From: Nipponacmea schrenckii
Taxonomy: Eukaryota > Mollusca > Gastropoda > Lottiidae
Reading direction: 5' to 3'
Length of the DNA: 64,000 nucleotides
NCBI GenBank assembly: GCA_030562195.1
Contig: JAUJPP010000003.1
Location: 30,758,602 to 30,822,601, forward strand
Within the stretch, counting starts at the first letter, position 1; each line of letters starts with the position of its first letter. The notes below the pieces were generated by a model that was given only the letters and a program-made list of their open reading frames with translations, did no database searches and was not told the DNA's origin. The translations under genes and the position numbers were made by a program. Shown here piece after piece: positions 39,026 through 41,107 of the stretch.

Positions 39026-39034
39026 AGTAGTATT

Positions 39035-39107
39035 AGAGTATTTAGATTTCCGGCACCCCGCCATTTCGCTCCGCTCCACTCCGGTCTACCGGAAATCTAA
39101 ATACTCT
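39035..39107. repeat. Terminal hairpin of the left TIR
   Basis: A 19-bp perfect stem (39035-39053 with 39089-39107) and a 35-base GC-rich loop. Its equivalent at 40491-40553 has a 25-base loop; the difference is a 10-base insertion GCTCCACTCC or similar. Confidence 0.92.
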
Positions 39108-39255
39108 ATGACTTTTTTAGAATAAATAGGCCAAAAAATGTCTTTAATAAATATAAACTCCCCTAAAATCTATTTCGGATCAGGGGACATTCAAAAATCT
39201 CTAACTAAACTTCCCGGTTTTCCATGGGCTAAATATAAAGGTGAGAAACATCTTC

Positions 39256-39755
39256 NNNNNNNNNNNNNNNNNNNNNNNNNNNNNNNNNNNNNNNNNNNNN
39301 NNNNNNNNNNNNNNNNNNNNNNNNNNNNNNNNNNNNNNNNNNNNNNNNNNNNNNNNNNNNNNNNNNNNNNNNNNNNNNNNNNNNNNNNNNNNNNNNNNNN
39401 NNNNNNNNNNNNNNNNNNNNNNNNNNNNNNNNNNNNNNNNNNNNNNNNNNNNNNNNNNNNNNNNNNNNNNNNNNNNNNNNNNNNNNNNNNNNNNNNNNNN
39501 NNNNNNNNNNNNNNNNNNNNNNNNNNNNNNNNNNNNNNNNNNNNNNNNNNNNNNNNNNNNNNNNNNNNNNNNNNNNNNNNNNNNNNNNNNNNNNNNNNNN
39601 NNNNNNNNNNNNNNNNNNNNNNNNNNNNNNNNNNNNNNNNNNNNNNNNNNNNNNNNNNNNNNNNNNNNNNNNNNNNNNNNNNNNNNNNNNNNNNNNNNNN
39701 NNNNNNNNNNNNNNNNNNNNNNNNNNNNNNNNNNNNNNNNNNNNNNNNNNNNNNN
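39256..39755. other. Assembly gap (500 N)
   Basis: Exactly 500 N, so possibly a placeholder of unknown size. Frames drawn across it have no meaning. It lies between the left TIR and the integrase core. Confidence 1.
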
Positions 39756-40459
39756 TAAATTTCAAACCCTAAAGATTTCATATTTTTATTATAAAATTCT
39801 GTTCCTTGATCTACCCATAACTTTTTGGGTTTTCTATGTTTCATTATTGTTTCAAATGCTTTTTTAACAGTTAGTCCTGTTTTGTTTTTTAGAGGAATAA
39901 CCCAAGCGTATCTTGTATATAAATCTATAACTGTTAAACAATATTTATAACCTCTTTCTGGGGGCATATTAATTAAATCAGCTGACCATATATCGTCTTT
40001 GGCGAATACTTTTACTTTTAAAAAGTTTTTAGTTTTTCTGAATTCTTTATGAATTTCATCTGCTATTCCCATACCCAATTTCATTTTTGATTTTAATAAT
40101 TTAATGATTAATGCTCTTTCAACTTTTTCTCTAAAAGTAGGATTTGGAATAGATTCTAATTCTTTTATCATTTGTTTGTCTGCTTCGTGTCGAAATTGTA
40201 AGTCTTCATTTCTGTATAGTTTATCGTGTTTAAGTGCAGCAGCATCAACTCTATTAACAGGTTCTTCGCCTGGTTTTGGATTATCATTTTCATCTAGTCG
40301 TAAATCTAACCTAGTTCCCGGACCAGTGTAATTATGACCTGGAAGATGTTTCTCACCTTTATATTTAGCCCATGGAAAACCGGGAAGTTTAGTTAGAGAT
40401 TTTTGAATGTCCCCTGATCCGAAATAGATTTTAGGGGAGTTTATATTTATTAAAGACAT
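39756..40459 (-). CDS. Phospholipase A2-like domain fused to Polinton-type integrase (cut by gap)
   Basis: ATG at 40459 opens 234 codons that run into the gap. Residues 40-85 carry NYTGPGTRLD (calcium-loop-like G-x-G) and VDAAALKHDKLY (His-Asp pair): the small phospholipase A2 fold best known from parvovirus VP1 unique regions. Residues about 150-234 are a retroviral-type integrase core: IWSADLINM (first Asp), YKYCLTVIDLYTRYAWVIPL and KKLWVDQGTEFYNK (second Asp). The third catalytic residue, a Glu, would lie in the gap. The integrase resembles that of Polintons. In such elements the phospholipase would breach membranes during particle entry and the integrase would insert the DNA; both roles are inferred. 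The visible part is intact. Confidence 0.8.
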
Positions 40460-40490
40460 TTTTTGGCCTATTTATTCTAAAAAAAGTCAT

Positions 40491-40553
40491 AGAGTATTTA
40501 GATTTCCGGTAGACCGGAGCGAAATGGCGGGGTGCCGGAAATCTAAATACTCT
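40491..40553. repeat. Terminal hairpin of the right TIR
   Basis: Stem 40491-40509 with 40535-40553, in the same orientation relative to the element end as the left hairpin. Confidence 0.92.
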
Positions 40554-41107
40554 AATACTACTGAGGTTTGTAGCAGGATACCAGCAGAAGGCAAGATGAC
40601 ATCTACAGACGGGAAGAGAACGTTCAACCTAGACCATAATACTCATGGATGTCAGACCAGATCGTGTATGCGATAAGCTGTAGTACATGCAAGAAACCGA
40701 TATATGTAGGTGAGACAAGGAGGACACTAGGGGAACGAATAAAAGAACATTTGGCAGATATAAGACTAGAAAGAAAGAAAGCAGTAGCGGAGCACTTTAA
40801 CGATGGGAACCACAAGGCAAAGGAAGCTATACAAGTTAACATCTTGGAAAGAATATGCGATGGAGCGAGGAACGTTAGAATGATAAAAGAGCGTGACTGG
40901 ATAAAAAGACTACGAACGGAAGATCCGAGTGGACTGAATAAGAAGTGCTCTGTTGGGTTTTTATGGAGGGACTACTAACAGCATGGCGAGCGAATGACCA
41001 AAGAAGTATGACGTCGTAACGATCTTTTTGACGTCGTGTCAACCGAAAAACATTCTAAACTAAAATTTGGAAATAGAAGGTCGAGAAAAATGTGATTATA
41101 GACTACA

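Follow-up and report, generated by a model that had tools for sequence, protein, structure and literature searches.

We describe an insertion at positions 39026-40562 of a 64-kb stretch of contig JAUJPP010000003.1 of the gastropod Nipponacmea schrenckii (hereafter the window; positions are those of the window unless a copy elsewhere is named). The insertion likely represents a Polinton/adintovirus-type family that encodes a phospholipase A2 (PLA2)-integrase and carries the PLA2 coding region within its terminal inverted repeats (TIRs), an arrangement yielding both a free PLA2 of about 117 amino acids (aa) and a fused protein of 387 aa. The window copy is probably of this TIR design and possibly shortened inside; an assembly gap hides which. 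We class the element as a variant of the Polinton/adintovirus kind, in which PLA2 is already known, with the fusion and the TIR placement as its new traits.

The insertion event can be read within the window itself. Both flanks align to an uninterrupted copy of the same Penelope-like sequence at 35229-36072 (minus strand), which has a single GAGGTT at the junction (35841-35846) and thus serves as a related empty site; on either side of the element this hexamer is present, at 39020-39025 and 40563-40568, as expected for an insertion with a 6-bp target-site duplication (TSD). Such 6-bp duplications are a Polinton trait. The left part of the split sequence (38794-39025, plus strand) is 99.6% identical to 35841-36072 over 232 bp, and the right part (40563-41161, plus strand), which includes a GIY-YIG domain at 40640-40978 (PF01541), is 95.5% identical to 35229-35846 over 619 columns. 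Homologues of the unsplit copy contain GIY-YIG or, in a few cases, RVT_1; we read the flanking host sequence as a Penelope-like element.

The ends of the element are AGTAGTATT...AATACTACT. Over the visible 230 nt (left) and 221 nt (right), the TIRs are identical except for a 10-nt and a 1-nt indel; the latter is a single T. Both run into an assembly gap of exactly 500 N (39256-39755) that hides the interior, so their full length is left open by the window alone. Other genomic copies suggest a left TIR of about 428 nt, visible at 39026-39255 (plus strand), and a right TIR at 40144-40562 (minus strand), with visible identity to the left one at 40342-40562 and a predicted inner limit at 40144, that is, PLA2 codon 105. 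The only other N run in the window is likewise exactly 500 long; N totals of 500 recur in fetched genomic pieces L029, L031, L034, L038, L040, L012 and L013, and single 500-N runs in L044, L045 and L046, the N total of L010 being 299. The window gap therefore looks like a placeholder and the 1.5-kb length of the element is no real evidence; we rejected the 1537-bp length as a sign of a solo-integrase element.

The PLA2-integrase open reading frame (ORF) occupies 39758-40459 on the minus strand, with 234 codons visible before the gap cuts it. Its PLA2 domain (PF08398; residues 37-103, positions 40151-40351, minus strand) scores 39.0 bits against a cut-off of 23.9 and displays the calcium loop YTGPGT and an HD..Y motif; the integrase core (PF00665; residues 155-229, positions 39773-39997, minus strand) scores 44.1 bits against a cut-off of 32.6. 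The preliminary description of this locus had named a GAGGTT duplication, AG...CT ends, TIRs of at least 221 bp and an ORF joining a parvoviral-type PLA2 to an integrase core, and had proposed checking whether the N-terminal part is PLA2-like; all of these features are recovered here, and the profile score answers the last point in favor of PLA2. At the left end, a second ORF begins at 39138-39255 (plus strand), its 39 visible codons being 100% identical to codons 1-39 of the right-hand ORF. The PLA2 part shows weak similarity to VP1 chains of capsid proteins, one of them named adeno-associated virus (E 0.03 and worse), and a fold match to entomopoxvirus Q9YW13 (TMt 0.58, 2.1 Å, 32% identity over 96 columns). 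The integrase part has the foamy-virus IN fold, with mavirus and MELD virus integrases among the BFVD matches. The catalytic positions of both domains are nearly invariant where aligned, and all five catalytic residues checked are found in 58 of 121 aligned rows, fragments included; the calcium loop, HDxxY and second Asp are what we take to be the functional motifs of the PLA2. We also note a donor-like GGTATGG at codon 128 of the window ORF.

A search of the genome (399 Mb, 1093 contigs) revealed many further copies, including some with the same TIRs, which the preliminary description had suggested seeking. Of 1236 ORF candidates, 150 matches were scored; many of these are 97-100% identical with open frames of 385-404 aa, the remainder being partial or interrupted by stops; TIR matches number 41, from the best 40 of 697 candidates. 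These counts include C3 copies twice, with nine pairs among the 150 ORF matches. C3 itself (59,252,672 bases) has the appearance of one chromosome assembled as two head-to-tail copies: nine ORF-match pairs and four TIR-match pairs are spaced by exactly 29,626,336, half its length.

Both ends of the element were seen in two of nine scanned loci. The C7 copy (22724361-22730538; 6.18 kb, internally shortened) has TIRs of 444 bp, 98.9% identical over 452 columns with the duplication included in the match, and the TSD AGGGCC, whose right-hand copy was read from flanking sequence. The C13 copy (8774561-8778287; 3.7 kb, including a 500-N gap) is bounded by TIRs of 463 bp that are 98.3% identical, and its TSD is GTCAGG. 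In both cases PLA2 codon 105 marks the inner end of the repeat. Beyond it, the left ORF reaches a stop after 12 more codons, giving a free PLA2 of 117 aa, and the right ORF continues into the integrase. The TIRs of these copies thus contain the whole PLA2 domain, which explains why an ORF starts inside both window TIRs, a feature first regarded as odd. As the right arm of the window copy agrees with the C7 and C13 left ends up to nt 419, the same TIR design is predicted at 40144-40562. A third copy, C5 (30228686-30239039; pieces L014, L043 and L015), has the fusion at both ends, with 387 aa at the left end. After the fusion come a protease-like ORF, an ORF for a coiled-coil, fibre-like protein, one of 162 aa and an OTU/PolB-like segment. 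The two arms, each at least 4.3 kb long, share 98.3% identity across 4317 columns and enclose a one-sided center of about 0.8 kb; we read this copy as a fold-back product. Copy-back defective genomes of linear DNA viruses resemble such an element.

Comparison of 12 copies (66 pairs) gave pS 0.117 and pN 0.0026 for PLA2 codons 17-128 and pS 0.134 and pN 0.0030 for integrase codons 137-234, values to be read with the reservation, unfavorable to our interpretation, that the copies were taken from protein matches, which biases pN downward. Nevertheless, copies some 12% apart at silent sites yet near-identical in protein make constraint hard to deny, and both domains look functional from their sequences.

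The fusion is widespread rather than peculiar to the window locus, and is probably old, judging from its distribution among homologues. Searching with the window ORF produced 367 proteins, of which the 120 listed were compared half by half using blastp: 90 match both PLA2 and integrase, and 30 (25 Lottia gigantea gene models and 5 environmental proteins) match PLA2 only. PLA2 precedes the integrase in all 90 two-part homologues, one of which, P0023, is little more than linker. The nearest named PLA2 proteins come from L. gigantea, at 64-87% identity, versus 97-100% among copies in the same genome. Several L. gigantea gene models (P0042, P0048, P0062, P0065 and P0079) join the same PLA2 module to other pieces that to the eye look core-, fibre-, OTU- and PolB-like; these joins are either gene-model errors at the donor-like site or real splicing from the TIR.

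A second search, using the integrase part of a distant member, returned 883 proteins. Among the 120 listed, PF08398 appears in the precomputed column for 20, and four (P0201, P0202, P0211 and P0221) combine DUF5679, PLA2, rve and Chromo within a single protein of 462-490 aa. Contigs carrying these second-search proteins reach 13.3 Mb (P0202, with 365 member sequences). We checked 193 proteins that contain an integrase core: PLA2 is present in 107, 12 have a long N-terminus but no PLA2, and in 74 the upstream part is too short to tell. This sample is biased in favor of PLA2, which was part of the first query. Several of the 12 carry a DUF5679 zinc ribbon instead, suggesting, on domain order, that PLA2 is an optional insert between the zinc ribbon and the core of Polinton-type integrases. 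DUF5679 directly precedes the integrase linker, without PLA2, in P0181, P0218, P0225, P0228, P0231 and P0238. A quick tree of 72 rows thinned from 83 (63 with PLA2, 7 with a zinc ribbon and no PLA2, 2 others) requires the PLA2 label to change four times, only one of these changes being forced by starred branches, and does not distinguish gain from loss. Scans of IMG/VR with the window ORF and three alignments found no relative, and the window ORF had no match in phage records.

The placement of the family is indicated by the genes around the fusion. A contig search gave five loci, four with integrase similarity only and one, L001, with a PLA2-integrase. L001, a 7.2-kb contig filed under a bacterial metagenome-assembled genome, carries a 402-aa fusion adjoined by a protease-like ORF, an Adeno_PX protein scoring above cut-off and a 1156-aa ORF with PolB motifs recognized by eye (Pfam finds only a sub-threshold Endonuclease_7). 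These protease-like, adenovirus-pX-like and PolB-like neighbors place the fusion with Polintons and adintoviruses. In C5, a 142-aa protease-like ORF beside the fusion is 42% identical to that of L001, and an OTU-like segment, read by eye and lacking a Pfam match, precedes the PolB-like piece. The left half of C7 contains pX-like and capsid-like ORFs, also read by eye, and the pX-like matches in fetched pieces lie near the C10 copy only.

As to defining traits, the family has the rve integrase of Polintons, 6-bp TSDs in the window, C7 and C13 (not in C5), and long TIRs, 221-230 bp of which are visible in the window. The C-terminal chromodomain of Adintoviridae is absent, with no Chromo match in the 387-aa C5 ORF. 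PLA2 lies on the integrase and not, as in Parvoviridae, on the capsid protein; hairpin-folding terminal palindromes, another parvoviral trait, are present by sequence, with a putative use in replication.

These palindromes had been described as 19-bp stems at each end of a Polinton-type element; the stems are confirmed, and are one base pair longer. The left one (39034-39108) pairs 39034-39053 with 39089-39108 around a 35-nt loop, and the right one (40490-40554) pairs 40490-40509 with 40535-40554 around a 25-nt loop, the 10-nt TIR indel sitting in the loop. They are the only perfect inverted repeats of at least 16 bp with a loop of at most 60 nt in the window. At 14 bp, they account for 14 of 15 matches, and 10 Markov shuffles produced none at either 14 or 19 bp. 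DNA folding z-scores are -6.9 and -8.9. As the two window ends are copies of each other, the hairpin counts as one observation, not two. The loops of both window ends have the same orientation and differ only by the 10-nt indel, for which reason parvovirus-style flip/flop was rejected.

In the window type, the stem starts at nucleotide 9 and the first 8 nt pair poorly; in C7, C13:8774561 and C13:1209922, it extends from nucleotide 1 with 26-28 bp of perfect pairing (folding z -9.0 to -11.2 for these C7/C13 copies). A stem of 20-28 bp is kept in 14 of 15 distinct terminal sequences, L010 having 8 bp; this set was picked by pattern, includes the window's own two ends and leaves uncounted any ends lacking the typed motifs. 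The count left out L001-L007, L018 and L019 (unrelated, or doubles of the window); many of the loci had been found through TIR similarity, and L040 and L044-L047 were chosen by protein. Between window and C7, 5 of 20 stem positions differ with pairing intact in both. Such paired changes argue for function, although a palindrome could also be maintained by copying from one arm to the other. The hairpin may be a mark by which the integrase recognizes the ends, or it may serve replication.

Several observations besides the sampling bias in pN weigh against the interpretation proposed here. The protease-like ORF of L001 reaches 13.4 bits with PF00770, below the cut-off of 21.3, and that of C5 has no Pfam match. 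The evidence for PolB in the family is the C5 piece, with exonuclease motifs read by eye and no Pfam match. The capsid-like and pX-like ORFs of C7 lack a confirming match, and the capsid-like ORF has none in IMG/VR either. PolB and capsid genes were sought in fetched genomic pieces using proteins of L001-L003: neither the PolB-like protein of L001 nor the capsid-like proteins of L002 and L003 matched any piece of a first set of 18 or a second set of 9. None of the copies seen had a complete Polinton gene set. Five copies were followed through three pieces each (about 22 kb), and the opposite end appeared only in C13, the C10, C12, C4 and C8 copies yielding none over that distance. The left window end shows 39 codons only, making the free PLA2 there a prediction. 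Of 145 proteins positive by hidden Markov model, 108 conform to a strict pattern of the PLA2 motifs, and the integrase D-to-E spacing is most often 29 or 33 and not 35, the spacing of retroviral integrases. Finally, both ends of C5 carry the fusion, and its flanks, TGGATA and TATGAG, do not form a TSD.

This last copy bears on a quite improbable alternative, that the window copy, instead of being a TIR element, is itself of the fold-back (copy-back) type, with an integrase at either end. A PLA2-integrase start is seen at both window ends, and C5 provides the precedent; against this, TSDs are perfect in the window, C7 and C13 copies, and the 230 bp that can be seen are consistent with a TIR of about 420 nt. 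It is rather unlikely that we are dealing with a derivative that is dead or non-autonomous, or with a gene domesticated by the host, without viral function. Such an origin would agree with the hidden window interior, the shortened C7 copy, the similar look of C13 and the stops or truncations in many of the 150 scored matches, but intact TIRs and TSDs at three loci, and synonymous differences of about 12-13% versus 0.3% nonsynonymous, point to selection on a mobile lineage. That the fusion is an assembly or gene-model join is exceedingly improbable and was rejected. The ORF does stop at an assembly gap, and named Lottia gene models do attach the same PLA2 to other proteins; however, the fusion runs uninterrupted at many genomic loci, in many other contigs and in 90 of the 120 listed homologues, so that the join named in the preliminary description as a possible refutation is not borne out.

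The preliminary description had wavered between a hybrid or intermediate and a Polinton/adintovirus lineage with an unusual gene. The L001 neighbors support the latter, and the fusion is a widespread integrase architecture. We hold as doubtful a true Polinton-parvovirus/bidnavirus intermediate, combining Polinton genes and PLA2 with hairpin telomeres that prime or resolve replication. In its favor are the stems perfect from nucleotide 1, the compensated differences between window and C7 stems, a PLA2 of the parvovirus VP1 family, and C5, whose two like ends could be left by hairpin copying. On the other side, the neighbors in L001 are Polinton/adenovirus-like, the first 8 nt of the window type pair poorly, and terminal palindromes of transposons can also be sites for an integrase or a regulator; parvoviral NS1 or VP genes were not noticed, no search having been aimed at either.

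The family described here shares with Polintons/Mavericks and adintoviruses (Orthopolintovirales) the rve integrase, 6-bp TSD, long TIRs and, in the relative L001, protease-like and pX-like genes beside the integrase. It differs by the N-terminal PLA2 on the integrase, the PLA2 inside the TIRs and the terminal palindrome of 20-28 bp; some distant PLA2-integrases also have a DUF5679 zinc ribbon and a chromodomain. With the PLA2 of the parvovirus VP1 unique region it has in common PF08398, the calcium loop, HDxxY and the second Asp, but VP1 joins this domain to a jelly-roll capsid protein, not to an integrase. Entomopoxvirus Q9YW13, a 138-residue PLA2-like protein of a large DNA virus, lacks an integrase and is closer to the free 117-aa PLA2. 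Bidnaviruses keep a parvovirus-type helicase and capsid.

PLA2 in Polintons has been published (PMC4642659; PMC5803895), and Polinton lipases were suggested to be packed in virions and to aid entry (PMC4642659). In Geisler and Jarvis 2018 (PMC5803895), the 'CAP' of Spodoptera frugiperda Maverick 1/2 is a parvovirus-type PLA2 encoded by a Maverick, PLA2 and the integrase (with chromodomain) being on separate ORFs and not fused as here. Adintovirus integrases with a chromodomain are described in PMC11071296, in whose text the term PLA2 is absent. Bidnaviridae are thought to mix Polinton PolB and TIRs with parvovirus genes, and the BmBDV capsid protein lacks a PLA2 domain, according to PMC4061559. 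Our literature search, with most subscription papers outside its reach, retrieved no paper on a PLA2-integrase fusion or on PLA2 inside a TIR.

The PLA2-in-TIR design illustrates a way in which two proteins can be made from a single enzyme domain by means of a terminal repeat. To our knowledge, neither the mode of cell entry of Polinton-type viruses nor its coupling to integration is established, and a conserved PLA2-integrase offers a testable answer. By analogy with the parvovirus entry literature, the PLA2-integrase would be packaged in the virion together with the genome; its PLA2 could open the endosomal membrane as that of parvovirus VP1 does, with the free PLA2 adding activity, and the integrase would then link both ends, with their hairpins, to host DNA at a stagger of 6 bp. 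We put forward only tentatively, as unlikely on present evidence, the full version of this scheme, a living, integrating and capsid-forming Polinton lineage in which hairpin telomeres accompany a TIR-duplicated PLA2 tied to the integrase, so that one protein serves both entry and insertion. Hairpins kept next to genes of Polinton type are directly relevant to the mixing of Polintons and parvoviruses from which bidnaviruses are proposed to stem, and a hairpin-telomere PLA2 Polinton lineage, if true, would be the kind of ancestor proposed for them.

Around the insertion, the Penelope-like element extends over 35229-38321 (minus strand) and has a separate ORF at 37497-38321 for an OTU protease (PF02338, 39.7 bits); it adjoins the inverted partial copy at 38794-41161 (plus strand) in which the insertion lies. 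Inverted repeats of 35 nt lie at 38764-38797 and 41166-41200. Self-comparison of the window further revealed large tandem and dispersed repeat arrays at 28471-32305 and 41525-54865.
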